Source: Amphibalanus amphitrite
Lineage: Eukaryota > Arthropoda > Thecostraca > Balanomorpha > Balanidae
Assembly (NCBI RefSeq): GCF_019059575.1
Contig: NW_024881597.1
Coordinates: 600,501-664,500, forward strand
Reading direction: 5' to 3'
Length of the DNA stretch: 64,000 bases
Part shown: piece by piece, positions 4,164 through 64,000 of the stretch
Layout of the letters: every line of letters begins with the position of its first letter
Numbering within the stretch: position 1 is the stretch's first letter
The notes under the pieces: model-generated
Told to the model about the DNA's origin: nothing
The model's database searches: none
Seen by the model: only the letters and a program-made list of their open reading frames with translations
Translations under genes and position numbers: made by a program

Positions 4164-5358
4164 TTAACCCGGCAGGCTGTGGGCCTACCAGCCACCTTCC
4201 GCGCGGTGGGGGGGGGGGACACTTTTTTGCCCCCCCCCATATCTCCGAAACTACTGGACGGATCCGGAAAATTCAAACGGCGTTCGATAGCCCTGTTAAA
4301 TTTGTTGAGGGAAACCAAATTTCATTGACCTCGAGGTCACCGATGACGTCACAGGTCAGGTCAAAGATAAAATGTTTCACCGTTCACGGGGCTTCTAGGG
4401 AAAGCGCTATAACACCGAGTAAAACGCATTTTGTCGAAAATCAGCGATAAGGCGTCAGTTGTCTAGTAAATATGTTGCTATTAGAGGTCACTGGTCATAC
4501 CAGGTCAGGTCACAGGTCAGGTCACCAAAGGTCACCAAGGGTCACCACATGAGCCCAACTTTACTAAGGTTATGCGATGCATGTTTTATGGCCAGTTTTT
4601 CATTTCCAACTCAATGGTGTTGGTTATAAGACCATCAGGTACGGTTTAGGTCACTTTCTGGTGGAGGTCAGGTCAAGGTCAGGTCAAAAAAGGTCAAATT
4701 TCAAAGTTGATATTTTTGCATAAAATCGGTATCGATTCGATGCAGCTCGTCACGGGGAGTCTAATGGTGGTCTTTGTTTTGCGCTACGAGGTCTAGAATT
4801 GCTAAAAATTGAGTTTGAAAATTTGACGTCATCAATTTTGAACAGTTTTTTCGCTATAACTTGGCCAAAAAAAGAGGTATCGATCTCAAATTTGGTATGT
4901 AGATAGAAGGCGGTAGGGGATATCACATATATTCCGGTTTTTTTCGAAATTTAAAAAGCTTTTTGGATTTTTAGGCTATTATATTCGAAAAATCTATTTT
5001 TTGATTTTTGGGGGTCAAAATCCAAAAAATTCGAAACCGAAAGAGCAGTTTTGTAGGCCTTTTAATTCCACACCTTTTATGTCAAAAATATTTTTCTGTA
5101 TCTCTAAAGCTGTAGGTCTGACAGCTCTTCCCGCGAAACCTTTTTTTGGGTCGAAAATGGCAAAAATGACGTCACTCTGACGTCAATAGCGGCCAACCTA
5201 TCATAGCCTCTGGAAAAATTTTTGGTCACCATGTGCGCTAGCTGCTCCCGGGAGGGTACTGAAAGTTTGGTGACGATCGGCGCAGCGGTTCTCGAGATAT
5301 ATCGAAAAAACTAAAGGGGGGGCAAAAAAATGCCCCCCCCCACCGCCTGGAAGGTTAA
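4164..5358 (-). mobile_element. TTAA-family MITE, copy A (1.2 kb)
   Basis: Bounded by TTAA at 4164-4167 and 5355-5358. A G-run/spacer/C-run hairpin lies inside each end, with spacers CACTTTTTTG and, inverted, CATTTTTTTG. The left end carries an extra segment before the hairpin, which marks it as the long end of the family. The interior has many AGGTCA half-sites (about 4330-4700) and paired CRE-like TGACGTCA sites near 5166-5185. There is no transposase frame, so the element is non-autonomous. Confidence 0.85.
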
Positions 5359-5829
5359 AATGCTCAAATCAAAGGGGCACGGTGCCCCGATGCCTCCCCG
5401 TTCCGCCGCCTATGCAGAAAATGCAAGCTGGATAGAAGTGAAGGAGCTCCTCCAGTTCACCTTCCATCCACAAGTTTTGAGTGCATTTGTTCCGGTGATC
5501 GCCTACGCGGATATTGCGAAAATATTGGAAGAAAAATGTGCAGACACTCTGTCTACTGACGCATTATTGCTGAGAAAAACAAGTTTTCAGTTTTCGTTCA
5601 GTTTTCTGTGTCGGCACAAACAGTAAACACCTGTACCGGTTTCCATAGTTTCACGTTTAGAAGCTTTCCTGCTCAATTCCTCTTTTTCAAACGGAGAAGT
5701 AACGCTCTGAGCAGAAGATTTCAGTGTTGAGAGACTTGTTTGACATTTTAGAAGTTTAGCGGTCAATGGTAGGTAAATTACCCTTCCTAATAGTGGTACA
5801 CCTAAAATTGTCTGTCGCACGCCAGCAAG

Positions 5830-7260
5830 AGGAGATGACTAACAATACGTGATGTTTAATTTGAATATGCCATAACAACATAAGCCCACTTTTTGCGACG
5901 TCAATTTCTATCTTTCGCATTCAAACGAGAGGGCTATGCATATCTTTGATGTTAGCAAAAAGTATGGAAAATTCGATTTTCCGCTTTGACATTCTTGTAT
6001 AGCTTGCTGGTGAATACAGGAACATCTGTAACTGTCAGAGGCGAGGCGGAGAACAATAATGGTTGTTTGTGTCGTCACCTGAGGACTTACGGCTTGGCAA
6101 AAAGAGTTTTCCTATTTCCAGGTAGCCTTACATAACTAGGCTTATTTACTGTACTGCATGACCAACTCCAAATGGTTATTACCCTTTGTACATACCTACA
6201 TAGGGAAAACATCTTTGCCAAGCCAGCGGCTCACTTTAGCGCTGGCACCTTTATTTATATTCGTTTTATTGCGTGACCACAGGAAGCTTTGGCCTAATGC
6301 CACGAAGGCGAGATGAGAATATGTCAACTATAAGAAAGAAATGAAAAACCATCGACCAGCAATAAGAGTCTATCACAAACAAATACCAGCTAACTCAGGG
6401 ACAATGTAAGTACCTAATATCAAACAATGACCATTGGCAAGAATGTTTAGTGAGCCCTGTAAAGACCCACATCCAACGTTATTCATCAACAACAACAAAA
6501 AAATAGTGTTCAATTCATTGAGCACGAGTGAGCACTGCCGATGCTATCAAACCGTAATTTGCAACTCAACGCATTTTAGAAAATTAGAAATAGTGTAACG
6601 AATGTTCGCCGATGTTGCATGTTTTATACCGTAAATTCTTCCAATCCAATCTTGAACAAGGACGGCAACTGATATTGTTATACGTTTGTAACAAGTGCAT
6701 ACTCGTCTCAAGTGCTTTATTGTGCATGACAGCCAATTTTAAAGCAGTGCAGAGCTATTTGATTTCGTATGCATAAGGTCTCCCGTTGGAATCAAGCGGC
6801 GATTTATCAGGCGGCTGTTTCAGCCGGACACACTCGAATAGCTTTTCACTGGCTGTCCGAGGTCTAAATGTGACCAATCATTAAAAACCAATAGTCGGAA
6901 TGAATATGCTCAGATGCTGTCACGAAATTTCCACAGGGAATGCATATAAAAAACGTGTTTTGATAGTGATAATGCAACATGAACTGCGACTGATGCCGAC
7001 GGATTGCCATGACCGGGGTGCCGAGTTCTTACGGATGCTGAAATATCGGAGTGCGCTGTTATTTTCAGTGCCAAGATTGTGGTAGCATTTCATTAATCTT
7101 TTTTTTCTCGCTTCAGAGAGGATCGACTCATTATTTGTAGATTGAGTCCATCTAGCAGCTTAGCCTGCCGGTATACCTATACCACCCACCATCGCCTGCA
7201 CTATTCGGACCAAAGGTCTACTGCCTTGACTCTGATATTTATGTAGACGGCGCTTGACAT
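5830..7260. other. Intergenic, no supported feature
   Basis: AT-rich unique-looking sequence with stop codons in all frames and no recognised repeat, RNA gene or splice-bounded exon. The short open frames here have no compositional or splice support. Confidence 0.5.
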
Positions 7261-8111: not shown

Positions 8112-9297
8112 TTAACCTTCGCCCCAGTGGGGGGGGGGGGGGCATATGTTACCACCCTGTCGCGTATTTTTCGTATAAATAAAAAACCGCGGCGCGTAGC
8201 GCCGCGCCGCTTGGGGTAGCTTTTGGTACATCAATTTTGGACAATATGTGAAATTTTTGACCCCAGGTCATGTCAGGTCAGGTCACTAGGTCAAGTTAAC
8301 TGACCAAGCCTAAAAAAAGTTTGCAATCATGTCCAGCCTGCAGTGTTTGTCAGAGAGGTTTCAAACTTGGTGGATTACATGATGTTATGGGTGCCTACAA
8401 TTTGTATATCTCGGATTTTTTATATGCGTGACCTAAGGTCAGGTCAGTGGCGTGACCTTTCCATTATAAGTCAATGGAGAAAAACAAAAATGCCTCTAGA
8501 TCCGTGTGTACGCATAGGAACAGTCCAAATATTTCAGGATAACAATGATTTGGACCACCCGTGAAGACCAAGATGTCTTTTTTGCTGATAGCCTCTTGAA
8601 AGGTCATCCGAGGTCATTTGAGGCTACAAACTGTTTTTTGCCAATAACTCTCGATTGGAAAGAGATAGAACGCTGGGGTTGGCCTCATTGTGTTTGTCTT
8701 GCCGAGACGCATCGACTGATATGCAACATGACCTTTTTCGGTCAGGTCATGACCTTGACCTGAGGTCAAATTTTGAAGTTGACCTTTCAAGGTCAAATTA
8801 TAGTTCATTCGACGCGTCTCGGCAAGAGGAACACGATTCTGGCATTAGAAATGACCTAGCTTTTTTTAGTCAAAAGTTATTGTCGAAAAACACTTTTCTT
8901 AAAAACAGCTATTTTTGGAGTTTTTGCCCTCTGGAGGCTAAACCGTTGACCTGAGGTCATTTTTGATGATGACCTTATCAAAAGAAGAGTTCAAAAGCTA
9001 TCGATTGCTTTTCCCAGCGTTTTTCTAGCTATCATAGTTCCTGAGATAATGGCATGTTTTCTGAAAAATATAATGACAATTCGCAAATTTTGACCTTTGA
9101 TGACCTCTGGTGACCCCAATATTGCTCTAAGATGAAAAATGACCGAAATACTTTCAAACGTACGCATCAAGAGCTATCGACTGCTTTTCACCGCGTCTTT
9201 CTAGCCCTCTTAGTTTTTGAGTTAGAGATGGGTGGTAACATATGCCCCCCCTCACTAGGGCGAAGTTGGCGGAGACCGCCACTGGGGCGCGGGTTAA
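8112..9297 (+). mobile_element. TTAA-family MITE, copy B (1.2 kb)
   Basis: TTAA at 8112-8115 and 9294-9297. The hairpin-side sequence GGGGCATATGTTACCACC at the left end is exactly repeated in inverted form at the right end. The right end carries a second copy of the terminal motif beyond the hairpin (long end). The interior holds a strong dyad: CTTGCCGAGACGCATCGA near 8698 against CGACGCGTCTCGGCAAG near 8810, with AGGTCA/TGACCT half-sites between. Short open frames across this element are chance. Confidence 0.88.
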
Positions 9298-12650: not shown

Positions 12651-12887
12651 TACCGTAAGGTGGGGCTATTTGAGACAGTGGGGCTATTTGAGACAGTATT
12701 TAAAATGGCTATAAAATAAAAACCACTTAAAATTTATCCTTAATTTTTTGCTCAGGCGATTTACTGCTCGATCCCACACCTCCCTGAGCAAAAATATCAC
12801 ACAAAAATCAAACGATCTTCATTTTATAGCGATTTTAAATACTGTCTCAAATAGCCCCACTGTCTCAAATAGCCCCACTTTACGGTA
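12651..12887. mobile_element. Hairpin MITE with doubled terminal motif, TA target
   Basis: Inverted repeats of about 54 bp, each made of two tandem copies of GTGGGGCTATTTGAGACA after TACCGTAA, face each other at 12651 and 12887 with a TA at each edge. The centre is about 125 bp of AT-rich, non-coding DNA. The TA target and TACCGTAA-type end suggest a Tc1/mariner or pogo-related element; the assignment is inferred. Confidence 0.8.
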
Positions 12888-14807: not shown

Positions 14808-15990
14808 TTAACCCGCGCGGGGCTGGGGGGGGGGGGTAAATTTTACCCCCCCTCGCGAATTTTTGCGATATCTCAAAAACGGCGGCGCGCAGCGCCGCCA
14901 AACTTTCAGTACCTTTTCTCACATCAATTTGACACGTTCCCTGAAAATTTGAGCGAAATCCGTCGGAAAATTTTTGAGAAATTGACGTTTTAGTGACGTC
15001 ATGTTCGTCATTTTCGCCTCAAAAACGGCAAAAGTTCAAACGCCGCTAACATCTTCATTTTTAAAGGAATCAAGACGTAACAAAAAAGGTTATACGTAAG
15101 TTTACTTTGTCTATCAAATGGCTATCTCGGTTTTTTGAAAATTTTGGATTTTGGCCTAATTTTTTTCAAAAAACTGACTTTTTTGGAAAAATCATTATAA
15201 AATCCAAAATTTTGAGCCTATCGAAAAAACCGGAATATATGTCAGAGAGGTGGTCTATGTGCACCTACATACCAAATTTTAGAAGAATCGGTTCAAAAAT
15301 GTGGGAGTTATTCAAAATTTTATGACGTCACGACACACAAATTTTTTTAAAAATGACTTTTTTGGAAGTTCTAGACCTCGTACGGAAACAAAAATAGCAC
15401 CATTCGATTCGCCGTGAAAAACTGCATCAGATAGACACCTTTTTAGGCCTTAACAACCAACTTCAAAATTTGACCTCACTTGACCTGACCTTGACCTGAC
15501 CTCGACCTGAAATTCATCCAGAGGTGGTCCATATCACTTATTGAGTGTGCCTATTGAATTCTATGAGTAAAATGACCCATAAAACATGTGTCGCACATGC
15601 CCTTTTCTATATTTTGTTTTTTGGTGACCTGACCTGACCTGACCTGACCTTGACCTTGACCTCTGAATGATATTGTATGCAACGAATATTGTCTTGGTAG
15701 CCTAAGAACACGTTTTGGGCGATCAGTCTCAGTCCATGACTCCATTCTTCGGCAACTACGGTGCAAGGCCGATACTGTAGAAACTTGCAATTTGTACCCT
15801 TGACCTGACCTTGACCTGGACCTCAAACTTTAAATTAAGTACATGTTTTTAGTAGTTCGTGATGAGAGCTTTCGATTGGCGTTTGAATTTTCCAAATCGG
15901 ACCGTTAGTTCGGGAGATAACAGGGGGGGTAAAATTTACCCCCCCCAGCCCCGCGCGTTCGGCTGGAGACCCCAGCCCCGCGCGGGTTAA
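14808..15990 (+). mobile_element. TTAA-family MITE, copy C (1.2 kb)
   Basis: TTAA at 14808-14811 and 15987-15990. Left terminus CCCGCGCGGGGCTGGGG and hairpin spacer TAAATTTTA; right hairpin spacer TAAAATTTA, followed by AGCCCCGCGCG, a short spacer, and AGCCCCGCGCGGGTTAA. The terminal motif is therefore doubled on the right. The interior has tandem TGACCTGACC words (15478-15510, 15628-15662, 15800-15825) and CRE-like TGACGTCA sites. Termini of CCY type on TTAA are characteristic of piggyBac-type elements; no transposase is present. Confidence 0.9.
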
Positions 15991-16868
15991 CCCTATTAGT
16001 GGCAGGGGGGGTTGTTTTTATCCACCCCTCAGGTTTTTCGGGAATATCTCCGAAACCGCTGAAGCTACGATGCTGAAATTTTCTGACATTTCCTAAAACT
16101 AAATTGGGCACATTCCCTGAAAATTTCAAGTTCATAACTTTACCAGGGGCGGCTCCAGAGCACTGGGAATTGGGGGTCCTATTCGTGAAGCGAGTCATTT
16201 GGGCGAAGATCACGATGCTGCACCAGTTTTACGAACAGTGAATGAAAGGTATCATGTGATAACATATACAAAGTTATTGTGCATCCTCTTTTGACACGTT
16301 TTTACTATAATAGGCGGATCCAGGCGTCCAAAAAGGGGGGTTATTTTTTACCTCCCAACATAGGTGCCCTGACACCGCCTATGCATGACCAATACAATTT
16401 TAGTCGTTCTCTCATAAGAAAATTGTAACATAACAAGACCATTGCCACCCTTTTTAGAAACAGTACCAACAAAAACCTTATTTACTATACTTTTTGTGTA
16501 CCCCCAATCTCAATTATCTGTATCCGCCTATGATTTTTGAAAATGCATATTTTTAGGATCCATGTGAATTCCTGGTTCATTCTCTATCGATCGGCAAAAG
16601 TTGCGTTAAGATTGGTTCAGAAACCTGGCCGTGATAAACAGTCTAAAATGTATCTGCAATTTGCCCGTTTTTACCCCCCCTCTACCCCCCTATTGACATT
16701 TTTTAATTTTATTTTTTTAGAAATGTAGATCTCGTTGAGCGAAATCGAATGCCGTTTGAATTTTGAAAATCGGCCCGTTAGATCTCGAGATATCAAGGGG
16801 GGGGTCGTAAACAGCCCCCCCCTGCCACTAATAGGGGGTAGCCAGGAGCCTGCCACTAATAGGGTTAA
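15987..16868 (+). mobile_element. TTAA-family MITE, copy D, abutting copy C
   Basis: It shares the single TTAA at 15987-15990 with copy C and ends at TTAA 16865-16868. Left terminus CCCTATTAGTGGCAGGGG; on the right CCTGCCACTAATAGGG occurs twice, separated by a 14-bp-scale spacer, before the final TTAA. Between the hairpins the sequence differs from copies A, B, C and E and contains a nested small element (16312-16531). Non-coding. Confidence 0.85.
16312..16531. mobile_element. Small nested element with GGCGGATCCAG-type ends
   Basis: AGGCGGATCCAGG at 16312 faces CTGTATCCGCCT at about 16531. Such GGCGGATCCAG ends are typical of hAT-like termini in animals. A related GGGGCGGCTCCAG motif lies upstream at 16147. 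It sits inside copy D, so it is probably younger. Target duplication is not clear. Confidence 0.4.
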
Positions 16869-23685: not shown

Positions 23686-24875
23686 TTAACCCGCGCCCTG
23701 CTGGGGGGGGTGTTTGAACACCCCCCCTTGTGGTTTTTCGCGAATATCTCAAAAACGGCGGCGCGGAGCGCCGCCGTTTTTGGTACACCTTATCATACAT
23801 CAATTCTACACATGTTGTGAAAATTTCAGACCAAGGTCATTCAAGGTCAGGTCACCAGGTCACTTGAAGTGACCTCACCTCATAAAAAGTTTCAATGTCT
23901 GTCATAGCTACACCGAGTGACCGATCGCTTTGAAACTTTCAGCGATTGCTAAGAGCAATAGCATGTACAAAATGTATATCTCAGAATTTTGATATCGATG
24001 ACCTAAGGTCAGGTCAATTTTGCGACCTCCCCATTATAAGTCAATGGGAGAAAATTGAAATGCGCCTCTTTTGGACGAAAGACATTATAAACACTCCCAA
24101 ACACCGAATTACAAGTGGTTTAGACACACTGAACATGAAAATGGTGTCCGTGACCCCTGTTTATGCCCTGAGGTCATCTTAGGTCACGAATGGTATCTAA
24201 CAGTTTTTCTCAAATAACTTTTGATAGAGGCATGCTAGAGCGATGAAAACGCCTTAGATGTGTTCAGCTCGACGATACGGATCGACTGATATGCAACATG
24301 ACCCTTTCCGGTCAGGTCATGACCTTGACCTGAGGTCAAATTTTCAAGTTGACCTTTCAAGGTCAAGTTATAGTTCATTCGATGCGTCTTGACGAGAGGA
24401 ACACGATGCCGGTAAAAGTAAGCTCGTACAAGGCTTGGGTCAAAAGTTATTGCAGAAAAACTGTTTCCGAAAAAATCGGCTATTTTTGCAGTTTTTGCCC
24501 CCTGCAGGCAAAACCGTTGACGTTAGGTCAAATCTGAGAGAATTACTTAGAAAGGGCGTTAATAGGGCTATCGAATGCGCTTTTCCGCGGCGCTGTAGCT
24601 CTATTGGTTCCCGAGTTATGCGTTGGCTTCTTGGAAATTTTCGACATTCGACCCGGAAATCGGCGAAATTTTGCCTTCAATGACCTCTGGTGACCTGACC
24701 TTTGACCTGACCAAAAAATTGACCGAAGTGATTTCGTCATTATTTTTGACGCTCTTTCGAACGCCGCCTTTCGCGTATCGCTACGTGGCCCAGGAGCCGA
24801 GTTAGAAGGGGGGTGTTCAAACACCCCCCCCAGCAGGGCGTGGAAATCCAGGACCCCCAGCCGGGCGCGGGTTAA
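23686..24875 (+). mobile_element. TTAA-family MITE, copy E (1.2 kb)
   Basis: TTAA at 23686-23689 and 24872-24875. Hairpin spacers TGTTTGAACA (left) and TGTTCAAACA (right) are exact complements. Left terminus CCCGCGCCCTGCTGGGG; on the right CAGCAGGGCG is followed by a spacer and CAGCCGGGCGCGGGTTAA. The interior is clearly homologous to copy B, including the central TGATATGCAACATGACC block with GGTCAGGTCATGACCTTGAC. Confidence 0.9.
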
Positions 24876-25908
24876 CCCTCGCCGGCCGAGGGGGGGGGGC
24901 GGGTGCCGCCCCCCCATAGGGTTTTTTTCTCGATAGCTCCGAACACGCTGGCGATAGAGAGCTGAAACTTGGCATACCTGACCTTTGATCCAAGCCGCAT
25001 CTTTTGACACCAACCGCATTTTTGGGTCAGGTCAGGTCACTGACCTATGACGTCATAAGTGAACCTCTGCACGGTCTTCAGATGTCGCAACTTCGCAACG
25101 CCCTCACTGCCAGAGGAGATGTCACAGGGAAATGAAACTTGCAGGATCTAGTATCCATTATGAGTCTCACAACTTGTATATCTCGGATTTTTCCTAAAGG
25201 TCATATGAGGTCAGGTCATTTTCGTGACCTCACCATTATAAGTCAATGGGGAAAAATGAAAACTGCTATTCTGGCGCCGGGAACGATCTCCAACTATCTC
25301 AAGCACACAGAATCGTGATTTGATGCACTCCTTGCAAGGTTAGATGCGTCACTTTTGCAATTTTGACCTTGCGTGACGTCATTTATGACGTCATCAAGGT
25401 CATATTAGTTTTTCGTCAATAACTCTTGATCAAATTGAGCTAGCGAGTCGAGAAAGCCACCAATGGATTCAGGAAGACCTGCCGAATCGAATGATATGCG
25501 ATATGACCTCTTTCGACCAACTTCGTGACCTGGGGGTGCTGACCTGACCTTGACCTGAGGTCAACACCCAAAGTTGACCTGACCCGGACAAAAAGTATAT
25601 CATTCGACGCGCCTGAGCGAGGCGAACACGATGCTGCCAAAATCGCGGCTCTGCGGCCGTTTTTTGCGAAGTTATTCACCAAAAACTGAACCGTACCCTG
25701 GGGCACTTGACCTGACCTCAGAGGTCACCGGTTGACCTAGGACCTTAAAATCGGGTACCAATCTCTGCGTCTCGTAACGGCGCACACGCTCGTTTTTTCC
25801 GCGACGCGCTAGCTCCACCAGGGGCGAAACGGCGAGGGGGGGTCGTACCCGCCCCCCCCCCCTCGGCCGGCGCGTATGTAGAAAACCAATAGGTCCGGCG
25901 AGGGTTAA
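24872..25908 (+). mobile_element. TTAA-family MITE, copy F, abutting copy E
   Basis: It starts at the TTAA shared with copy E (24872-24875) and ends at TTAA 25905-25908. Left terminus CCCTCGCCGGCCGAGGGG; on the right CTCGGCCGGCG is followed by a spacer and TCCGGCGAGGGTTAA. The interior carries two full CRE palindromes TGACGTCA (25374-25381, 25386-25393) and many AGGTCA half-sites. This subtype recurs in reverse near 50545 and at 57923-59765. Confidence 0.9.
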
Positions 25909-43700: not shown

Positions 43701-46700
43701 CCGCTCCTCCCTAGACGCCAACTCGGGATTCGTCATCACCGTGATCCAGCCGGGCGGAGGGGTGCAGCCGCAGCAGCCGGTGACACGGGACGCTCCGGAC
43801 GCCTGAGAGGGGACAGGACCGGCCGACCGACACCGCCGGGTTCCGCGACACAAAGACTGACCAACAACACAGCAGAGTACAGCGACAAACAGTCGAGCCG
43901 GGTTAAGGAGCGACTGTGGAACGAACAAAGCCACATCACGGAGCGAGCCGAGTCACGGAGCGACTAGCATGAACCGAGCCGCGTGATGGACTGAGCCGCA
44001 TCACGGAGCCGTGTACTAACAGATCACTTGTAGAGGGCGAAGATGACGTCCTGACTCATGACTGATGCAGCTAATTGAGAAAATGTGTGACATGTGTAAT
44101 TGCATTGACGTGTATTGCGAGGTTTCTTAGTGGAATTAGTGACAAGGGTAGCATTAATACTTTTGCTCTTCGAGTACAGCACAATACTTGTAGTTCAGAG
44201 TGTATTGGCAGTTGGCAATGACTAGCCAGCCTGAATCATCTCCGTTCATGGTTGTATTTATCCCTCTCTCGGAGATGTGATACCCATAATCGTTTCATTC
44301 ATGAATCCACTGGCGCTTTTTCAAGAATATGCATGGTCATGGCCCAAAGAAACTTACCTTTGCGTATGCAGTTTCTCACCATTATGCCCCAAAATATACA
44401 GATGCCATGCATGACCATTAACAAATATAAATTTACATGAACACGGTCCCTGTCGCCTCACTGACGCCGACGTTGCCCACCATAACGAATAAACTTGCGT
44501 GAAACCATGCATTTGTGCTCACTTTGGTGGTTCAGATTTCAATGGATCAAGCAAAGACATAATGACGTTAAATACATTTTTGACGAAAAACATCAGGCGA
44601 AGCTTCTGCTATCGTAGGAGATAAATGATCGCTTGGCCTGATCGAATCTGCACCGTTTAACTGCAATATCGCTATGGCGAAATTAACATCCTGATATTTT
44701 TGAGTTCGGCCTTCCACGAGTGTCTCGTTCTTATGTCTCGGGAGGGGATAGAATCATGTCAGTGTGACATCAGATAGGGAGGGAGATGGCCGACAGTGTA
44801 TCTACAGAATGATGTTCCACTTTTCACAGGCAATTATTGCCTGGAGTGGTAGGCTGTGGCGCATCACACGGGCCGAGTTCACAAATTATAGCTTTGTCCC
44901 AATGCTCACAATCGACACGCTTAATTGCGTGATAAACGGCGCAACTTAGCACTCCCGTTAACCCGGCAGTTGCTGGGGTATTTCGCCACCCACCGTTTGC
45001 TGGGGGGGGGGGGGGCGTTAAACGCCCCCAGCCGATAACTCGAGAACCAATAGGCGCAGCGAAACGCACGAGGCGGCAAACGAAAGAGCGCGACGAGACG
45101 CTTCAGATGAGTACTTTATTGTTGAATTTTGAGGTCACAGGTCGGGTCAAGGTCAGGTCAAACACCTGAAATCGGGCTTTCAGTAGCATGGACTTCAGGA
45201 CTTCGCAATGGGCGCCTCTCGCCATATACTCTGTCAAAACGGTGCACAATCCATCTTATAAGGCCTACAAGAGTGTCAGCTCCATGTAGGGGTCAGTCAA
45301 GCATAGGTCAGGGTCAAGGTCAGGTCAACTGGATAGGCACATATCCCCGAAAATCAAAACTGATATTCGCAGCCTGTGACACATGTTTTATAGGTGATTT
45401 GGGGCGTAGAACACGATGGGGACATTTATTTTATCATATGTGTACGTGTTTGGCTCAAAAAGTTCAATTTAAGAAATTCATGTATCATGGTCGTGAAGTA
45501 GTCACGAAAAATTGTCAAGATTCAGTTCAAGATTATGGAAAATGCGGAACCATAATCAATAATCGAAGATAGCCATTTGATTGATCATGGTATTGGCAGT
45601 CTAATGGCGTTTACAGCATGTCTGTATGTCTATTCTGTGATTTTATATGATTTTTTGAACATATGCCGTTTTTGGTCGAAAACTCAGAAATCATGACGTC
45701 ACTAAAACCTCGATATCTCAAAAATTTTCCGACCGATTTTTTTGAAAGTTTGTCACAATAAACTTCAATCAATTCCCTACAGGTACCCAAAATTTGGCGC
45801 GCCTGCGGCGCGCCGTTTTTATGCTATGGCCCGGCGAAAAAAGTGGGGGCGTTTAACGCCCCCCCCCCCCCAGCAACTCGCGGGTTAACTGATAGCTTCT
45901 GAGGAGTGGAACATAATTCTGTAGTCGACTATACAGTGAAAGTGTGCGACGATCGGTACTCACTGGACCAGCGGTTCGGGCAGCTGTCATCCTCAGAGTA
46001 CTGAAAGGCCTCGTCCGGGCCCCAGTCCTCGTCGGGTAGCATCAGAATCACGCCCTTCACGTCACCTGACAACAAACACATCACGGCGTCAGTACGTCAA
46101 TTCACGACAGCGGGGAGGGGTGAGTAGTACAGACAGATTCGACACGGTGAAATGTTAGGAATACTACCGAGCCGATGTCATTCACCAACAAATCAAAAGC
46201 CCCAGTTCCCGTACCAACAAGTCAAAAGCCTTAATGCCCGTACCCACGGCGGCCGTTAGGGCGGACGGAAATCACTAATTACGACCGGCCTCTGGAGTCT
46301 GGGACTGACCCCAGTAGCTTGGAGTTGAGTCGGGCCCGGTGCTTGCCCTCCATACAGTCCGCCCTGAACTCAGCCCAGTTAGAGTCGGTCCCCGGCACCC
46401 ACCCTTGTAAACGTCTGCGCCCGAGCTCACCACAGTGTGGGTGAATCGTGGACTGAACCCACCCCGAGTTTCTGAGTCAACTCTGGTCGGGGTAGCCCCT
46501 CCCGTCTATACTCTATCTGCACCCCACCTCACTGGTCTGTGTGGTCTGCGCTCTATCCCGTAGCCATCCTGGGCCTCGTTTCATAAAGCGAGTCCGTAAC
46601 CTACATCAGTTTTTGGTCTTGAATTGCAAGTGCATGTGAAGCGATGACGATAGTTTCAATCGTTAAATTTATTTATCTTGTAAGCAAGAACAGAAGGGAG

Positions 46701-48094
46701 AGGGGGAAATAACTAATCGCTTCACATGCGCTTGCAATACAAGACCAGAGACCGTGGTAACTTACGGACTCGCTTTATGAAACGAGGCCCTGGTCTAGGC
46801 TCGGTCCATCCCGTGCCCAGTGCCCACCCTACTCGACTGGTCGTGGTCGGCCACGTAACCCGAACCCATCCTGGTCTGGGCTCAGTCCTTCCTGTACCCA
46901 CCATGGTCTGTGCTCTGCGCTACCCTGTGCCTACCTCGGCTGCGGTCTCCCCGCAGCCTCCATCCGGCCCTGTCCGGGGTCATCTAGCACCCACCCTGCT
47001 ACCCTGAACTCACCCTGATCGGGGTCGGCCGTCATCCTCTCCAGTCGCTGCAGTGTGTCCACGGTGAACCATTGGCGCGGCACCACGGCCACCACCGACT
47101 GCCGCTCGCCAGAGGTCGTCAGCCGCGTCAGGTCGGCACTCGAGTTCACCACTCGCAGTAGGCCCACGTTGCCGGTGAAGTCGGCTGGAGTGCAGAGTAA
47201 GAGGAGTCAGTTATAGGCAATGAAGGGGCGCAGAGTGGTGTAGGACTACATGAGTGAAAGACGTAGTCATGCGATCAAAGCAGACGAAGGCACGGATCAA
47301 ATCTTTGTTCGATCGTCCACAATCCACATGGTATAGGTTGAACAACCCGCCTTTTAAGGTCCATCTCAGTACAAATTGACAATGTGACAGGAAGCAAATT
47401 TGAGACAAATAGACAATGTAGCATTACTGCACCAAAAGCATAGAAGTTTTATAGCAAGCCTATTGAGAAGCAAGAACTTATCTAGCCTCCCGTCTACCCT
47501 AACCCAAGTTCATCAGTGGTTAGATGTGACAAAATGAAAGAAACAGAGTTACCTCTGCAGCCAAATTCATGTGTTCCATTCAAAATCTTGAAGCAGCTGT
47601 ACGTTGCATCCAGATCCTGGTAAATGGACTCCCAGATTCGGTTGGCTGTTGCTGTAGCAAATAACATTTATCAATTATATTGCATGTCTAACTAATAAAA
47701 TCATTATTTATTGTCTTTGGGCCGCTTCGGCATAGGTATTATTCTCATACCTAGCTAGACAGCAAAAACATGCAAATTGTCAAACACCATAGTTCCGAAC
47801 ATATCATTTCTCACGAGCAGTATCGACTCATCAGTGAATTTTAGGACTTAGGCTTATTCAAAGAAAATGAGAAATGGACAAGCATTCAAAATTCAGACGA
47901 CAGGTACCAACGGTGGGAATCATCTCTTACAAAGTTGACTAGTGTGTCAGTGAACTTATTTTAAATGTTTGCCAGAAAAATGTTGGCAGAAAAAATAAGA
48001 AACATATCTACAGCAGCAAAAATGGATATTTTCAGAGTAGGTACCTACCTTCACTTGACAGTAGAAGAATTGTTGTCATCCATATCAGCCACAT
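34515..48094 (-). CDS. NCSTN: Nicastrin, gamma-secretase subunit (12 coding exons, complete)
   Basis: Nicastrin is the heavily glycosylated type I membrane subunit of gamma-secretase, the intramembrane protease that cleaves Notch and other single-pass proteins with presenilin, APH-1 and PEN-2. Coding exons on the minus strand: 48094-48049, 47651-47553, 47184-47014, 46065-45964, 40887-40739, 40295-39894, 38044-37808, 37180-37002, 36448-36286, 35894-35760, 35250-35010, 34714-34515. All introns are GT-AG and all junction phases agree; the sum is 2124 nt, 707 residues, against about 709 in vertebrates. Visible are a signal peptide (1-15), the family's DYIGS motif at 327-331 preceded by the conserved Glu324, many N-x-S/T sites, and one C-terminal membrane helix (about 675-694). 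Homology runs end to end. Introns hold several transposons and, in intron 4, another gene. The C-terminus may be alternatively spliced to 31596-31680. Confidence 0.96.
35010..35250 (-). CDS. NCSTN: Nicastrin coding exon 11
   Basis: Acceptor CTTCCACCAG, donor GATG/GTGAGT. It encodes VAGQATMHSYLMRLTHNVLS through ALSPAFEL-like SSAVSPAFEMDG, the conserved end of the ectodomain. It has N-glycosylation sequons (NVT, NDT, NGT) and paired cysteines (DKCRND, GYCTRS) as in other nicastrins. Enters in phase 0, leaves in phase 1. Confidence 0.94.
35760..35894 (-). CDS. NCSTN: Nicastrin coding exon 10
   Basis: Forty-five in-phase codons between acceptor CCCGACAG and donor GTGTCG/GTACGT. The segment VADLLECYLVRANCSLFRDA aligns with the helical region following the TPR-like part of vertebrate nicastrin. 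One NCS sequon. Confidence 0.93.
36286..36448 (-). CDS. NCSTN: Nicastrin coding exon 9
   Basis: It enters in phase 2 from exon 8, completing a serine codon, and reads FFHSVYDVRSTVSTGG then DLTELADRLSRLAQVV and AAYGLATG up to the donor AAATGG/GTGAGG. The spacing of FHSVYD and the following helix matches the YYQSIYD region of vertebrate nicastrin. Confidence 0.93.
37002..37180 (-). CDS. NCSTN: Nicastrin coding exon 8
   Basis: Acceptor CTCCACCCAG, donor AACAG/GTAACG (phase 2). It encodes VRELMDGLRTYADPG, then the strongly conserved TPLPPSSLHALLRGN and GLVVTDHNQSYTN, matching the PLPPSSLQRFLR and VVLADH segments of the family. Confidence 0.95.
37808..38044 (-). CDS. NCSTN: Nicastrin coding exon 7: DYIGS exon
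   Basis: Begins with GAG at 38044, which encodes the conserved glutamate (Glu324 here, equivalent to vertebrate Glu333) at the start of ESFDYIGSDRMVYDM. It continues through VSYYLELNQLARGTPLFLHS and DPVTRRKNPQV to donor AGCAAG/GTAAGC. The DYIGS region is the family's diagnostic segment, in the aminopeptidase-like fold of the ectodomain. Confidence 0.96.
38319..39442. repeat. CACGTG-unit repeat family, copy 1, in a nicastrin intron
   Basis: Starts ATTACGAGCGAGCGAGCGC and ends with CTCGCTCGCTCG followed by CCCAAAAGGCGTTTTACTGG; the GAGCGAGC words are inverted at the two ends. Five related units of about 115-160 bp each carry a phrase like AACGGCTGGGCCGATTG and a GCACGTGCGCACGTGCAG-type palindrome. 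A 254-bp MITE interrupts the first unit. Homologous to 49486-50176. No transposase. Confidence 0.82.
38432..38685. mobile_element. 254-bp MITE nested in the CACGTG repeat
   Basis: Inverted ends CGACACCTTTTTTTTAAACC and GGTTAAAAAAAGGTGTCG continue inward through CCCACAT/ATGTGGGG, about 33 bp in total. ATAT is duplicated on each side (38428-38431, 38686-38689). The homologous position in the second copy, TTATATCTCAG near 49590, is uninterrupted, so insertion and target duplication are directly visible. Confidence 0.88.
39894..40295 (-). CDS. NCSTN: Nicastrin coding exon 6
   Basis: The largest exon, 134 codons, phase 0 at both ends (acceptor CCACCGCAG, donor AGCGGG/GTGAGT). It reads CHHQYNSAGAEGPWPRCAAQ, CWRRSQRQNLL and FCSPMGSTNLFSTW, then ETVLVAARTDGATMF and GADSAVVGMVALMAAARA, ending NVMFMLFSG. 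These match the CYQDHN, CMRR, VVVAATRLDS, GAESAV and NVMFVFFQG segments of vertebrate nicastrin. Confidence 0.95.
40739..40887 (-). CDS. NCSTN: Nicastrin coding exon 5
   Basis: Acceptor TTTCACCAG, donor GTGAAC/GTGAGA. It completes the codon begun in exon 4 and reads FYRSDPASAEFRYCPKTPWN then MFKRSWSFPIILLKNQTQID, matching the SFPIFLLEDENET region including its N-glycosylation sequon (NQT). A C-run (40668-40685) lies just inside the following intron. Confidence 0.94.
42212..43806 (+). CDS. Two-exon gene for a small secreted peptide, nested in nicastrin intron 4
   Basis: Exon 1 (42212-42247) encodes MRVLLAVVIVLQ and ends at CTGCAG/GTGAGT (phase 0). Exon 2 (43621-43806) follows TGTGTTTCAG and adds 61 residues: LLSLALSAPRYYITVASG, RSRSSLDANSGFVITVIQ and a Gly/Gln/Pro tail, ending in TGA. 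The two halves of a signal peptide join exactly across the splice, with likely cleavage after LALSA, leaving a mature peptide of about 53 residues without cysteines and with Arg-Ser-Arg. It lies opposite to nicastrin, between nicastrin exons 4 and 5. A GC-rich 5' region (41930-42210) could be its promoter and leader; AATAAA follows at 44488. Not a family I recognise; a neuropeptide- or cuticle-like secreted product is possible. Confidence 0.72.
44488..44493 (+). terminator. Candidate polyadenylation signal of the nested gene
   Basis: AATAAA in the context CATAACGAATAAACTTG, about 680 bp past the stop codon at 43806. It is the first canonical hexamer I see downstream of the nested gene. Use is inferred. 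Confidence 0.35.
44958..45888 (-). mobile_element. TTAA-family MITE, copy G, in nicastrin intron 4
   Basis: TTAA at 44958-44961 and 45885-45888. Hairpin spacers CGTTAAACG (left) and CGTTTAACG (right) complement each other. The left end has the doubled motif (GCAGTTGCTGGGG, spacer, GTTTGCTGGGG), the right the single motif CCCAGCAACTCGCGGGTTAA. The interior has AGGTCA arrays at 45130-45330 and GGCGCGCCTGCGGCGCGCC near 45795. Confidence 0.88.
45964..46065 (-). CDS. NCSTN: Nicastrin coding exon 4
   Basis: Acceptor GTTGTCAG, donor GTCCA/GTGAGT (phase 1). It encodes GDVKGVILMLPDEDWGPDEA then SEDDSCPNRWS, matching the IAGLAVSL and QCPNDGFGVYS region of the family. Confidence 0.93.
46572..46789. mobile_element. 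218-bp MITE in a nicastrin intron, CTG duplication
   Basis: Ends GGCCTCGTTTCATAAAGCGA and the complement form inverted repeats of roughly 75 bp with interruptions (GAGTCCGTAA..., TGCAAG, CATGTGAAGCGAT). CTG is repeated directly on both sides (46569-46571, 46790-46792). A 3-bp duplication would suit PIF/Harbinger-like elements, though CTG is not their usual TWA; superfamily left open. Confidence 0.75.
47014..47184 (-). CDS. NCSTN: Nicastrin coding exon 3
   Basis: Acceptor GCACTCCAG, donor ATCAGG/GTGAGT. It reads ADFTGNVGLLRVVNSSADLT and VVAVVPRQWFTVDTLQRLER, matching the GDTGVIHVV and PYMVLLESKHFTRDLMEKL segments near the N-terminus of the ectodomain. Confidence 0.92.
47553..47651 (-). CDS. 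NCSTN: Nicastrin coding exon 2
   Basis: Acceptor TTGCTACAG, donor GCAGAG/GTAACT. It encodes TANRIWESIYQDLDATYSCF and KILNGTHEFGCR, matching the mature N-terminus of nicastrin ([24 protein letters not shown]-like) with its two cysteines and NGT sequon conserved. Confidence 0.93.
48049..48094 (-). CDS. NCSTN: Nicastrin coding exon 1: signal peptide
   Basis: ATG at 48094-48092 opens MWLIWMTTILLLSSE and ends at GAAG/GTAGGT. Its one-nucleotide overhang joins exon 2's two nucleotides to make alanine, so the phase fits. The peptide is short and hydrophobic as expected for a signal sequence. A possible acceptor (GTCCCAG) at about 48118 suggests a further 5' untranslated exon upstream. Confidence 0.85.
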
Positions 48095-48119
48095 AGCAAC
48101 CAATCTTCAATAAGGTTTC

Positions 48120-49100: not shown

Positions 49101-49129
49101 GTGCTCGTCCCTAACATCACCCTTGTGAA

Positions 49130-50544: not shown

Positions 50545-51135
50545 ATGCTCAACGCTAGATGACAAATGGAGTATATTCGTTGCGTTCGGATGAGGTCAAC
50601 TTTAGGTGTTGACCTAGGGTCAAGGTCAGGCCAGAGCCCCCAGGTCACGAAGCTGGTCAAGGAGGTCATGTCGCATATCATTCGATTCGGCAAGACTTCC
50701 TGAGTCTATTGGTGGCGTTCCCGACTCGCTAGCTCAATCTGACCGGAAGTTATTTGCAAAAAACTCTCATGACCGACGTCACGCAAGGTCAGCAACGCAA
50801 ACGTGAAGCATTGGAATTTGGACCAAAAGTTCATGAAATCACGATTCCATGTTTCCATGTTCCATGTGATAGTTTTTAACCCTATTACTGCTGGGCTTTC
50901 TGGACTATCATGGTGAGGTTACGTGACCTACCTGACCTATGTGACCCTTAGGGAAAATCCGAGATATATAAGTTGTGAGACCTCTGAAAGATACTCCTAA
51001 GTTTCAGAGCTATTGTAAAAAAAAAAAACAATATGGCACGTCACTCGCCCCCTCGGCCGGCGAGGTTTAAGCGTTCGGGAGACATCGCAAATATTCGTCA
51101 GGGGGTGAAAATCCCCCCAGGCCCGCGAAGGTTAA
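50545..51135 (-). mobile_element. TTAA-family MITE, rearranged copy H (subtype of F, reversed)
   Basis: Reverse-orientation homology to copy F: TCACGAAGCTGGTCAAGGAG near 50645, the GCATATCATTCGATTCGGCA block, and TCCGAGATATATAAGTTGTG near 50958. It ends in TTAA at 51132-51135. Between about 50860 and 50905 it departs from F and contains a stray TTTTAACCCTATTACTGCTG, like a family terminus. The outer left end is missing, so the copy is truncated and rearranged. Confidence 0.65.
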
Positions 51136-51911: not shown

Positions 51912-52077
<166 letters not shown>

Positions 52078-54992: not shown

Positions 54993-54994
54993 TG

Positions 54995-56245
54995 GGCCCG
55001 GGGCCCAAAGGCCTGCCAGGGGCACCACCGGCCTATCAGGGGTATCACAGTCCTGACAAGGGCACCACAGGACCGCCAGGGGCACCACAGGCCTAGCAGG
55101 GGCACCACGGGCCTGGTGCCCCTGAGCCCTGACAGGACTGTGACGCCCCTGACAAGCCTGAAGTGTCCCCTGGCAGGCACGTGGTGCCCCTGACAGGCCT
55201 GAGGCGCCCCTGAGAGGCCGGTGGTGCCCCTGGCAGGCCTGTGGTGTCCTTGCTAGGCCTCTGGTGCCCCTGGCAGACCTGTGGTGCCCTTGTTAGGCCT
55301 CTGGTGCCCCTGACAGGCTTGCGGTGCCCCTGGAAGGACTGTAGTGTCCCTGGGCTCTGACAAGCCTGAGGTGGCCCTGACAGGCCCGTGGTGCCCTTGC
55401 TAGGCCTGTGGTGCCCCTGGCAGGCTTCTGGTGCCCCTGCTAGGCCGCTGGTACCCCTGCGTCCGGAGGACTGTGGTGCCCCTGAAACGCCTGAAGTGCC
55501 CCTCGGCAGGCCCGTGGTGCCCCTGACAGGCCTAAGGTGCCCCTGAGAGGCCGGTGGTGCCCCTGGCAGACCTTTGGTGCCCCTGGCAGGTCTGTGGTGC
55601 CCCTGGTAGACCCGTGTTGACTGGTGCCCCTGCTAGGTCACTGGTGCCCCTTACAGACTTGTGGTGCCCCTGGAAGGACTGTGGTGCCCCTGGGCCCTGA
55701 CAAGCCTGAGGTGCCCGGCCATGACAGGCTCGTGGTCCCCCTGACAGGCTAGTGGTGCCCTTGCTAGGCCTGTGGTGCCCCTGGCAGGCCTGTGGTGCCC
55801 TTGCTAGGCCTCTGGTGCCCCTGGCAGGCTTGTGGTGCCCCTGAAAGGACTGTGATGTCCCTGGGCCCTGACAAGCCTGAGGTGCCCCTGACAGGCCCAT
55901 GGTGCCCTTGCTAGGCCTGTGGTGCCCCTGGCAGGCCCATGGTGCCCTTGCTAGGCCTGTGGTCCCCCTGGCAGGCCTGTGTTGACTGGTGCCCCTGCTA
56001 GGCCGCTGGTGCCCCTCACAGGCCTGCGATGCCCCTGGAAGGACTGTGATGCCCCTGCCCCTAGGGGTGCTCATGGGCCCAACAAGCCTGTTGTGCCCCT
56101 GACAGGCCTGTAGTATCCTTGCTAGGCCTGTGGTGCCCCTGCTTCCTGGCGGGCCAGTGGCGCCCCTATAAGGCCGTAGGTGGCCCTGACAGGTTTGTGG
56201 TGCCCCTGGAAGGATGTGGTGCCCCTGATAGCCTGAAGTGCCAAC
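54995..56245. repeat. 20-bp minisatellite (GGTGCCCCTGACAGGCCTG type)
   Basis: A 20-bp unit GTGGTGCCCCTGGCAGGCCT repeats, with variants, for about 1.25 kb; GACTGGTGCCCCTGC and GGGCCCTGACAAGCCTGAG interruptions recur as larger blocks, so a higher-order repeat is likely. On the minus strand it reads as a 300-residue Gly/Ala/Pro/Gln-rich frame, which is a by-product of the unit and not a collagen gene. Confidence 0.9.
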
Positions 56246-57922: not shown

Positions 57923-59765
57923 TTAACCCTCACCGGACCTTCAGGTTTTCTGAATACCGAGGGGTCGTTGGGGGTTGGAAGTGAGGAAACAACCCCCTTC
58001 GCCTATTCGCCCCTAATTGAGCTAGAGCCTCACGAAAGAAACGATCGTGTGCGTCGTTACGAAATGCAGCGATTGGTCTCCGATTAAAGGACCAGGGTCT
58101 GCCGATGACTTCGGAGGTCAGGTCAAGTGGCCCAAGGCACAGGTTCGGTTTTTGGTAAATAACTTCGCTAAAAATGATCGCAGATCCGCGATTTTAGCAG
58201 CATCGTGTTTGTCTAGCTCAGGCGTGTCGAATGGTATACTTTTTCTTCGGGTGAGATCAATTTAACCCTCGCCCGTATAGAGGGGGGGGTCGAACGGACC
58301 CCCTCCCTCGGTTTTTCGCGAATATAACTCGCGTAAAAAGCGGCCGATCGCGACGAAACTTTCAGTACCCTCGCGTTAATCAATTTTACACCCACCCTGA
58401 AATTGTCATGACCCTGACCTTAATGACCTTTGACCCGCGACCTACTTTTCGAGACCATGTTTGGCCGGAATCGCGATTCGGCGTATGTCGGCTCGCATTA
58501 GCGGCGCGTTTGCAGTCTTTTCGTGGTTTTAAGCGTTCAAGCATGGGATATGATCTTGCTTCCATGCATTAGGGTGGGTGCCAAGGTCACCGGAAAGTCA
58601 GGTCAGGTCATTGACCTTTGATGAGCTCGGTTCACTTTTTCGAGTTTTACATGTTTCTAGGCCAGTTTTAGGAGCTGAATTCGAATTTAGCAGCCATATG
58701 AACATTTACGAAGTAGTTTTGGTGCCCTCGTAACATGTTGCGAAGCTGTCAGAGGCGGTTGCCACCTACTACGAATACCCTTACTGTTTGACCTGACCTG
58801 ACCTGACCCGACCTGGCCTAAATGCATGAAGACATCATCTGTGATCAAAACGAACATGATATTCGTGATCAGCACCCCGAAAACCCCATAGCAGCCACGC
58901 TTTACGACTTTCTAACAGGTCCCGATTTCCCCGACTTTTGGGTCATTGACCTGACCTGGAAAGTCAACCGATGACCTAGGACCTTAAAATTGGGTATCAT
59001 CGACTTCCTCTCGTCACGGCCAACACGCTCGTTTTTCCGCGAAGCTCTAGCTCGATCAGGGGCGAAACGGCAAGGGGGGGGGATCCAACGGACCCTTATA
59101 CGTTTGAGGCTGGAAAAACACCAATACGGGCGAGAGTTAAGGTGTTAACCTCGGGTCAAGGTCAGGTCACAGCCCGTCAGGTCACGAAGCTGGTCAAAGG
59201 AGGTCATATTGCATATCAATCGATTCGGCAGGTCTTTTCATGTCCATTAGTGGCTTTATCGACTCGGTAGCTTTAGTTGATCGGGAGTTATTGACGAAAA
59301 ACTGATAGCCTTAGTTACATGATAAATGACGTCACGCAAGATCAACAAAGCAAAATTGAAGCATCAGACCTTGCAAGGAGCGCATGAAATCACGATTCCG
59401 TGTGCTTGAGAATTTGAGATAGTTGTATATCATTTCCGGACCAAACTAGCAATTTCCATATTCCCCTGACTTTTAATGGTGAGAGACTGACCTGATCTCA
59501 GGCGACCCTTCAGAAAATCCTAGATATACATTTATACAAGTTGTGAGATCTCTCGATCATACTATAAGATCCTGTAAGTTTCATCTCCCTATGAAAGCTC
59601 TGCACTGAGGGTGTTGCGAAGTTGGAGCATTTTAGCACAGTCCTAAAATGCTCATTTTAGGACAGTTTAGGACAGTTTCACACAGTTCATTTTAGGACTG
59701 CTCATTTATGACGTCATAGATCAGTAACCTGACTTGACTTAAAAATGCGGTTGGCGTAAAAAATC
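57923..59765 (-). mobile_element. TTAA-family MITE (F subtype, reversed) split by copy I
   Basis: Its long end starts at TTAA 57923-57926 (CCCTCACCGGACCT, like copy F's right end in reverse). Homology to F runs to 58261, is interrupted by copy I (58262-59140), and resumes at 59141 (GGTGTTAACCTCGGGTCAAG) until about 59765. The last hundred or so bases of the family are missing. A palindromic stretch of CATTTTAGGAC words (59625-59705) replaces part of the F sequence. Confidence 0.82.
58262..59140 (+). mobile_element. TTAA-family MITE, copy I, inserted in another copy
   Basis: TTAA at 58262-58265 and 59137-59140. Left terminus CCCTCGCCCGTATAGAGGGG; right end CAATACGGGCGAGAGTTAA after a spacer beyond the hairpin. 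The interior has TGACCTGACCTGACCTGACC at about 58788-58807. Removing it and one TTAA restores continuity of the host copy compared with copy F. Confidence 0.88.
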
Positions 59766-60044
59766 CGACTTATCAAATCCCGACTAAAAAAATCGACTTA
59801 TAATCCGGTTAATCAAATCCCGACCATGTTTTTACCTGGCCATTAATGTTCTAGCCTTACAGGTGATTGTTTGAACGCGGAAGATGCTGAATCTTGGTTA
59901 ACCCCATGCTTATCGTATGATAAAGAACGTCAGTGCTAGAAAGTTAATTAACAATTTTATTTAGGATAGTTTAATTCAAGTGGGTATAATCCGACTTGAC
60001 AATTTACTAGGAGGGTTTTGCAGCGCTATTAGTTCGGCATTTAG

Positions 60045-62253: not shown

Positions 62254-63466
62254 GGGGAGGAAATAGGTGATGTCGTATTGTTGGGAACTTTCCATCACGC
62301 TACCCGTGGCGCCTACTCTGCACTCGGCGGCTCCGGGCCGGCGCCGCCGAGGTGCAACCCGAGTCAACCGGCGGCCGGGTCAGGCCGCCCGGACCGGCCG
62401 GCGGGCAGAGCTCGGTGCGTCCTGGGGGCGGCTGGACGCTTGGTACCTACTATTGTGCTGTTGAACTCAACCGTTTTATTTTTTACTTACGTTAATATAC
62501 TACACTGTGTGTCAATGATGACTCCAAAAAATGTGCTCAACAGCCAAGACGCCCAGGTTTAGGTCGCTTGGGCGTCTGGCGGCATTGACTCTGTTCACCA
62601 GGGCTGGGAAATCTCTCATACTTTCATACCCCAGTAGGTAGCAGATATCGCTTTATTGTTCCATCAATTGTAGCAAAATCAACATTTCTCTCTTCCGTAC
62701 ATCATAAAGAAAATACAATAAAAACATCAAAATTCGCACATTCTTAAAATAGAGGGACCACCAGCCAGTGATCTCGTCGGCGAATAAGAACAAAACATTT
62801 GTGAGACTAACACAAGTTCAAAACGTCAGCTTTGTGCTCCATTTTATGACGAATCTGGCGGCTCTTTGTAGCAGTTTCCATTGTAGCATCACTAATTCTT
62901 CATACTCTGAGTCCATGGTGTGTCGTTTCGGGAACTAGCGAATGAAGTTTAGTACCGCCGTTCACCGGTGGATGGCGCTAGCTGGTAGTTTCGGCGAAAA
63001 CTCCGTCTGAGATGTTTGAAGGCTTCCCTTAATCCCTTGTTCAAACATGGACCCCGTCAGCCCCGGCAGAGGTATTTGTCCAGTGTACACCGCACCTGAG
63101 GACGGGTCAGCTGAGGGAGGGGAGTCACTATTGTGGCCTGAGGAATGCCGCGCCGGTCGGGGGACGGGGTCGGGAGGAGGGGGAGGGAGGCAGCGCCGTT
63201 CTTGCGGTGACGGGCTGGCTTGTCGCCTCAGCCTGGCATACGCTCAGTCGGCGAGGCGATGCGCATGACCCGGGAGCAGCTGAGAGTCCATGACTCCATA
63301 TAGACAATTGGCTCGTTTGTAAGCACGAACACTTGGAATGTTGCTGGTGCAGAATTTAAGCATAGGGACTATGTTTTTTTTGTGCCAAATTTTGTGTAGG
63401 TAGGTACATGTAAGGAATTTATAGAAATTTATTGTGACAGTTTCCAAAAAATCGGTCCAAGTTTTT

Positions 63467-64000
63467 TTAACCCTCGCCCTGGCAGGGGGGGGGGTCGATG
63501 CGACCCCCCCCCTAAGGTTTTTCGAAGATAGCGTAAAAACGGCGGCGCGCAGCGCCGCCAAATTTGGCACAGCCTATGGGGCATCCTTTTTACATATGAC
63601 CTGAAAATTTCAAGTCCGGGTGACCTTGGGTCAGGTCACCAGGTCAGAAAAACCGGTACAAGGTCATGGTCAAATTTCAATTTTCTTTTTGCACCTGTCC
63701 AACTCACAGTTTTGGACTGATTTCCTTCAAACTTTCAGGATGTGCTAAGTTCACCGAGTTGTATAACATATAGTTCGTTTTTTTTTAGGTCACTGACCAC
63801 CCCACTGACCTGAGGTAAGTTAGAGGTAATTACGTCATAATGTTAAGCCAATGGGAAAATACTAAATTCGGAAAATACTGGAGATATCCGCTTCATTCTA
63901 TCACTTTTGTGCTTTGAAACCACAGTACTTAACAGCAGGTCACTTGGTACTTCTTTATTTGGTGTACAGTCTGTCTTAAAAGTACCGCGCAAAGTGGCGG
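63467..64000 (+). mobile_element. TTAA-family MITE, copy J, cut by the window edge
   Basis: TTAA at 63467-63470, terminus CCCTCGCCCTGGCAGGGG, hairpin spacer TCGATGCGA, then AACGGCGGCGCGCAGCGCCG as in copies C and E, and AGGTCA arrays. The simple (left) end is present; the other end lies beyond the window. Confidence 0.85.

Follow-up and report, generated by a model that had tools for sequence, protein, structure and literature searches.

A stretch of 64,000 nucleotides of the Amphibalanus amphitrite genome (positions 600,501 to 664,500 of contig NW_024881597.1, or C100:600501-664500; hereafter the window) contains at least 11 TTAA-type non-autonomous elements, whose hairpin ends vary between copies and match within each copy. 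Elements A, B, C, D, E, F, G and I are complete, J is decayed, and H and X are present as ends only and were completed from sequence neighbouring the window. Measured from TTAA to TTAA, the complete elements span 879 to 1657 bp (H counted in), and an element found elsewhere, K3, spans 645 bp. As expected of miniature inverted-repeat transposable elements (MITEs) they have many copies of homogeneous length without transposase, H deviating in length, while their 645-1657 bp exceed the strict-sense MITE size, usually less than 500 bp (PMC2872659). One end consists, outside inwards, of TTAA, a motif of about 16 nucleotides, a G-run, a loop of usually 9-10 nucleotides and a C-run (single end). At the other end of every complete element the motif is present twice, 26-28 bp apart, with the hairpin behind the inner copy (double end). 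An initial annotation of the window overlooked this doubling; the end motifs it had named for B, C, D, E and G are indeed present and are placed below. Searches covered the window's own genome (807.55 Mb, 2,644 contigs) and, for the transposase domain PF13843, 14 control genomes in addition. Comparisons of ends used 15 subfamilies, one copy each: A-I, X (the copy X2 at locus L015, the X at the window edge being a second copy) and K1-K5, recovered from fetched loci (K5 at L042). The elements are arranged as follows.

1..61, minus strand: element X, present with its single-motif end, while L070, left of the window, holds its body and double-motif end; a mosaic, with ends like those of a transposase-bearing element on contig C44 and a body like that of K5
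L070: double end of this X copy, reading TTAAAACCC
4164..5358, minus strand: element A, 1195 bp; double-motif end at 4164, single-motif end at 5358; hairpins 4208-4238 and 5316-5341
8112..9297, plus strand: element B, 1186 bp; both ends with the loop CATATGTTACCA; motif CATATGTTACCACC at 8143, its reverse complement at 9231
14808..15990, plus strand: element C, 1183 bp; hairpins 14825-14852 and 15923-15946; motifs TAAATTTTA at 14837 and TAAAATTTA at 15930
15987..16868, plus strand: element D, 882 bp; adjoins C, with one TTAA common to both; motif CCCTATTAGTGGCAGG three times, at 15991 and as reverse complement at 16821 and 16849
23686..24875, plus strand: element E, 1190 bp; hairpins 23703-23727 and 24808-24831; motifs TGTTTGAACA at 23711 and TGTTCAAACA at 24814
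24872..25908, plus strand: element F, 1037 bp; adjoins E, with one TTAA common to both; hairpins 24890-24915 and 25836-25862
44958..45888, minus strand: element G, 931 bp; double-motif end at 44958; hairpins 45002-45029 and 45845-45871; motifs CGTTAAACG at 45016 and CGTTTAACG at 45850
57923..59777, minus strand: element J, decayed relative of F; double-motif end at 57923; split by I; likeness to F extends to about 59777
58262..59140, plus strand: element I, 879 bp; inserted within J; loops TCGAACGGA and TCCGTTGGA, near reverse complements
63467..64000, plus strand: element H, single-motif end with loop TCGATGCGA; runs on beyond the window to 1657 bp (L069:968-2624)

The architecture of the ends recurs across the subfamilies, while their sequence varies. 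The offset between outer and inner motif at the double end is 26, 27 or 28 in 15 of 15 subfamilies (best among offsets 22-33). An 8-nucleotide core agrees between the two ends of an element at 7.2 of 8 positions, against 3.5 of 8 between elements, and the agreement of the 16-nucleotide motif between ends was reached by none of 20,000 shuffled pairings. At the single end, 36 of 45 positions of the loop arms pair, compared with a mean of 16.1 in shuffles, 0 of 20,000 of which did as well; at the double end 31 of 45 pair, a score matched by 1 of 20,000 shuffles. The initial annotation had described ends of TTAA, motif, G-run, spacer and C-run for every intact copy. In its strict form, with runs of at least 6, this pattern fits A, C, E and F at either end and D, H and X at one of the two; G shows it with runs of 5, B, I and the second end of D by eye only, and J is decayed. 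It had also held the ends to be copy-specific and mirrored within each copy. The mirroring is indeed beyond chance, but it is imperfect in D (loops TTGTTTTTATCCA and CTGTTTACGA), F, X and I, and the motif of D, present at both ends as proposed, occurs three times rather than twice. The two loops of I match at 8 of 9 positions when one is flipped and at 5 of 9 directly, in three copies (window, L057, L067), hence the loop may be flipped at one end.

TTAA is found at both ends of 8 of 8 complete copies in the window and of 59 of 60 E and C loci read genome-wide. The exception is the E copy L020, which is flanked left and right by CTAG, as though a non-canonical palindromic target had been used. 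C and D abut at 15987-15990 and E and F at 24872-24875, and flank octamers place 6 of the 30 C loci and 1 of the 30 E loci, window copies counted, beside an end of another element (L042, L051, L055, L057), which may point to preferred insertion into the TTAA of existing ends.

The layout resembles that of piggyBac from Trichoplusia ni, with ends of 35 and 63 bp (left end LE35, right end RE63), where bp 34-63 of the right end are almost bp 7-35 of the left end, the first 16 bp are bound by the main domains of the transposase, and a palindromic repeat is bound by a dimer of its C-terminal domains (cysteine-rich domains, CRD; PMC7351741). Both systems have a TTAA target, one end that is longer through a duplicated motif (by 28 bp in piggyBac) and a palindromic internal repeat behind the motif. 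Unlike in piggyBac, the palindrome is here composed of G-run, loop and C-run, varies in sequence among at least 15 subfamilies and belongs to non-autonomous elements. Termini of CCCT or CCTT are carried by A, B and I (single end each) and by D, F, H, X, K4 and K5. By analogy, each end is a predicted transposase-binding module of the LE35/RE63 type, and this likeness supports selection for pairing ends, one of the causes considered in the initial annotation. The ends of piggyBat are unlike those of piggyBac (PMC11707139, PMC13405395).

Searches for further copies scored the best 40 candidates only, so that all counts are lower bounds; J and the window copy of X were left out. D, E and F (98-99% identity), G (98%) and I (96-99%) each recur at full or near full length at at least 39 further places. 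The same minimum of 39 holds for C (97-99%; 38 full length, one partial), for B (96-99%, plus one place at 94%) and for A, queried with about 437 of its 1195 bp (97-98%, plus one weak match). All 40 scored places of K5 (98-100%) and of X2 (99-100%) are of full or near full length. For H, 38 of 39 other scored copies match the right part at 97-98% and the left part, whole or partly, at 91-96%, about 1.04 kb in total, and the remaining one matches positions 1-1111 at 91%. Because the other scored places of the window elements match at such high identity, the ends are specific to, and common to, whole subfamilies, and are not copy-specific.

The window copy of H is a long form, about 600 bp of which (502-1110) are without counterpart in 38 of the 39 other scored copies. 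A changed single end of H beside an unchanged double end was considered for the 16 of 38 copies that matched only from query position 28-50 and was rejected: of these 11 were fetched, and 11 of 11 carry the H motif and loop, the shift being one of run length. Outside our counts stand a further single-motif-like end at 51101-51135 on the minus strand (TTAACCTTCGCGGGCCT, a G-run, the loop ATTTTCA and a C-run), with an F-like fragment at 50573-50981 beside it, and two more subfamilies with the end loops TCGGATCCGA (L074, near 1-110) and CAGATTCTG (L004, near 2400-2479).

Next, the ends were compared with the sequence beside them. Among the 15 subfamilies and the C44 element, 49 of 120 pairs have alignable end-neighbouring sequence, with a pooled identity of 84% (5036/6014; an upwardly biased figure from local alignments of non-independent pairs, three of which include the C44 element); in those pairs the identity over the 24 core positions is only 46%. 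X2 and K5 are the clearest case, with 96% identity over 148 bp beside the double end and 83% over 145 bp beside the single end, against 10 of 24 core positions. Since the ends thus differ between subfamilies more than the neighbouring sequence, simple ageing alone does not explain the pattern, as had been argued in the initial annotation. That annotation was prepared to yield to well-separated subfamilies with bodies as divergent as their ends; well-separated subfamilies were indeed found, but the bodies of X2 and K5 are far more alike than their ends. As in the coral MITEs (CMITEs) of Acropora, interiors are more conserved between families than terminal inverted repeats (TIRs), although CMITEs are about 100 bp long with TIRs of 13-14 bp and the elements here 645-1657 bp.

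The genome holds at least 116 places with a piggyBac transposase domain (PF13843). Ten of these were sampled and the downstream 650 bp read, and one has ends of the present kind: the match at C44:1061854-1062912 (E 2.9e-68) runs into an X double end. It belongs to an element of 3,975 bp with TTAA on both sides (C44:1060842-1064816) and an ATG 1,418 bp inside the single end. At both ends its motifs and loops coincide with those of X and X2, save for the lengths of the runs, and its recognition cores agree with those of X2 at 24 of 24 positions. The same double end was seen in C527 and C171, two of three further loci of the C44 group, whereas the stretch fetched from C42 was without it. Among the 10 sampled of 116 loci, a same-ended partner was found for X/X2 and for none of the other subfamilies. 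Kolobok and Sola3 elements also have TTAA targets, with transposases of their own; the one partner found here is of the piggyBac type.

With the C44 element at hand, the relation between X2 and K5 can be resolved site by site. The middle is common to X, X2 and K5, and 592 of 600 positions are identical (98.7%) between K5 and X2 in alignment columns 200-800, while their ends agree at 21 of 43 (double) and 12 of 18 positions (single). X and X2 carry the end pair of C44, and K5 carries another. Judged by the sites that distinguish C44 from K5, X2 on the left side resembles C44 at 48 of 49 and, past the switch, K5 at 38 of 38 resolved sites (Fisher p 6e-24); on the right the figures are 30 of 32 for C44 and then 77 of 81 for K5 (p 1e-20). 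These are best-split Fisher values, for which the minima in 300 shuffles each were 7e-5 and 5e-4. X shows the same switch, with an extra K5-type patch at about columns 61-114 on the left (best split p 1e-9 left, 5e-23 right). K5 and X2 are both multi-copy, and almost the same body thus circulates in two matched end pairs. This exchange of end pairs between bodies, shown for one lineage, had been overlooked in the initial annotation. A wider patchwork of local likeness among the subfamilies fits exchange without proving it: K2 resembles A in its middle (92% over 287 bp) and K5 near its single end (93% over 71 bp), B resembles K3 (90% over 220 bp) and E (94% over 127 bp), E and K3 show patchy likeness, and I and K4 are 89% alike overall.

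We consider it likely that these are non-autonomous piggyBac-type elements, the ends of which are transposase-binding modules exchanged as pairs between bodies. What we observe is how the ends are built, that the copies form subfamilies, that a transposase-bearing element exists with the ends of one of these, and that one body occurs in two different end pairs, with sharp breakpoints; from this we infer transposase binding of the ends, the route and direction of repair, and the same origin for the other subfamilies. The terminal motif would be read by the transposase core, and the palindrome behind it (G-run, self-complementary loop, C-run) would occupy the site of the dimerised C-terminal domain of piggyBac. 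A single transposase would read every copy of the motif at both ends; having to be read by one enzyme, the motifs would match within a lineage and differ between lineages with different transposases. A new lineage would originate through recombination at homologous sites, by which a body acquires the end pair of a transposase-bearing element, whether in gap repair with template switching or in conversion. Both ends would be copied from one element before the template is switched, in homologous stretches, to another and, coming from one donor, would match from the start. Seen as exchanged modules, the matched ends suggest that elements can switch the enzyme that moves them.

Several observations weigh against this interpretation. 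One lineage of exchange is demonstrated and the rest is patchy similarity, and within that lineage the recombinant could be X2, K5 or the C44 element. Four of the 10 sampled transposase loci appear to end in TTAACCCATTAGTGCC or TTAACCCATTAACGCTC, with no G-runs, and for five others (L072, L073, L077, L078, L079) the ends were not placed. The Cys-rich C-terminal stretch recognised by eye in the C44 copy is in a different frame from the preceding stretch, two pieces of the C-terminal region (32 and 89 residues) gave no Pfam match and the 89-residue piece no PDB match; thus a Cys-rich domain in C44 is not established. The termini of C, E, G, K1, K2 and K3 read CCCG instead of the CC[C/T]T hallmark of the piggyBac superfamily, and the loop arms pair at 0 of 3 positions in B and at 1 of 3 at one or both ends of A, D, F and K3. 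Finally, gap repair following excision may be the wrong route to invoke: piggyBac is described as excising without a footprint (PMC7351741), and in animal Pack-TIRs, for which template switching is discussed, the breakpoints spoke more for breaks within elements than for excision (PMC8277862).

The most serious alternative, which we nonetheless regard as rather unlikely to suffice, is gradual coevolution, in which ends and transposase specificity drift together and selection pulls all motif copies along, without exchange of ends. It would accommodate ends that differ more than their flanks between subfamilies, the covariation of the loop arms, and the identical cores of X2 and the C44 element. 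However, the C44-type sites of X2 extend over about 200 bp, well past the hairpin, before an abrupt change to K5 type, and the K5 and X2 bodies are nearly identical between different ends; such an abrupt reciprocal switch is not expected from a gradient of selection. Coevolution may nevertheless operate alongside exchange.

It is quite improbable that the hairpins are kept for a DNA structure, such as a cruciform or a G-rich single strand, and not for protein binding. In most subfamilies both ends carry G- and C-runs around self-complementary loops, which would be congruent with such a role, but the arms differ between lineages and mostly match at both ends of one lineage, a match that structure alone does not need, and the hairpin position agrees with the CRD site of piggyBac, as far as the analogy carries.

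Gene conversion from end to end within a copy, or templated hairpin repair, was put forward in the initial annotation to explain why the two ends stay alike, and the near identity of the ends of C, E, G and H within a copy and the apparently flipped loop of I would suit it. We read 30 E and 30 C loci, window copies counted (L021 and L022 have the same flanks and are probably one locus), and compared about 37 nucleotides of the single and about 60 of the double end with runs collapsed. Save for run lengths the ends are near-constant, with departures from the common end in 8 of 30 E and 2 of 30 C loci. Private changes at one end were seen in L014, L055 and L066, and L011 and L031 have in common a change at the C-run edge of the single end that is absent from the other end; of these changes, in five of 60 loci, none is mirrored. 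In five of 30 E loci (L023, L025, L029, L032, L033) a T in the outer motif makes it equal to that of the single end, and the E loci L019 and L033 have, beyond the stretch compared, a G immediately inside the hairpin of the double end that likewise equals the single end. Both could be counted in favour of conversion but are readable either way. The G-run lengths of the two ends are weakly correlated (r 0.16 and 0.31), and differences between an element's own two ends are retained alike in X2 and the C44 element. On balance the one-ended, unmirrored changes argue against ongoing conversion between the ends, which is unlikely within these copies; as the cause of the matched ends we hold it to be very improbable, and for templated hairpin repair no positive evidence was found in these loci.

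Least credible of all is ordinary ageing of old subfamilies with ends and bodies diverging at an equal pace, for although the copies do form well-separated subfamilies, the cores lag far behind the flanks in the 49 pairs, and it is refuted for X2 and K5 by the likeness beside their double ends.

Other features of the window include imperfect palindromes of about 230-290 bp (75-79%) at 12651-12887, 22164-22435 and 46568-46793, possibly other hairpin elements; a 160-bp stretch at 51915-52074, 96% self-complementary, within an 867-residue open frame without a Pfam match; and a long array of inverted short repeats at 54996-56227. A fragment of a nicastrin gene lies at 39867-40448 on the minus strand (Pfam E 1.3e-13), and a Pfam search of 10 of the 68 listed window frames returned nothing beyond it.

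The initial annotation knew of no described family with such a pattern, yet there are precedents. The Acropora CMITEs are TTAA-flanked and piggyBac-related, have interiors more conserved between families than their TIRs, and include tandem copies and one family with the TIRs of an autonomous element; the available part of that work describes no double-motif end, hairpin or exchange of ends and leaves the origin of the pattern open (PMC2872659). In Galileo, of the P superfamily in Drosophila, two copies have TIRs more than 99% alike within a copy and about 7% divergent between copies (PMC2775673), and among its chimeras are some with both TIRs of one subfamily around the interior of another (PMC3573991). 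Unlike the present elements, Galileo has long repetitive TIRs, a 7-bp target duplication and a P-type transposase; 170 copies were studied there (PMC2775673, PMC3573991). An origin from a master element by gap repair with an ectopic template has been proposed for the P-MITEs of Anopheles gambiae, also of the P superfamily, in the available text without breakpoints against two parents (PMC1562414). Conserved interiors with family-specific TIRs and TIR/interior chimeras were accordingly known from CMITEs and Galileo, and matched end-pair exchange in piggyBac-type MITEs would be what is new here; among the open-access PMC matches listed, viewed as titles and abstract openings, none reported it.

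More tentatively, and with slightly less than even confidence, end pairs might be regarded as interchangeable address labels. Successful bodies would repeatedly be repackaged in the matched ends of an active piggyBac transposase by two-sided template switching, the loop palindromes would record the changing recognition code of the C-terminal dimer, and MITE families would be combinations of body and label rather than lineages of descent. X2 and K5 offer a concrete case for the question left open by the coral CMITE paper, of interiors more conserved than ends. If exchange is general, families would not be classifiable by ends or body alone, and a change of ends could let non-autonomous elements survive the loss of their transposase. 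Natural data on how end recognition of the piggyBac type changes are also provided by the large number of subfamilies whose palindromes co-vary.

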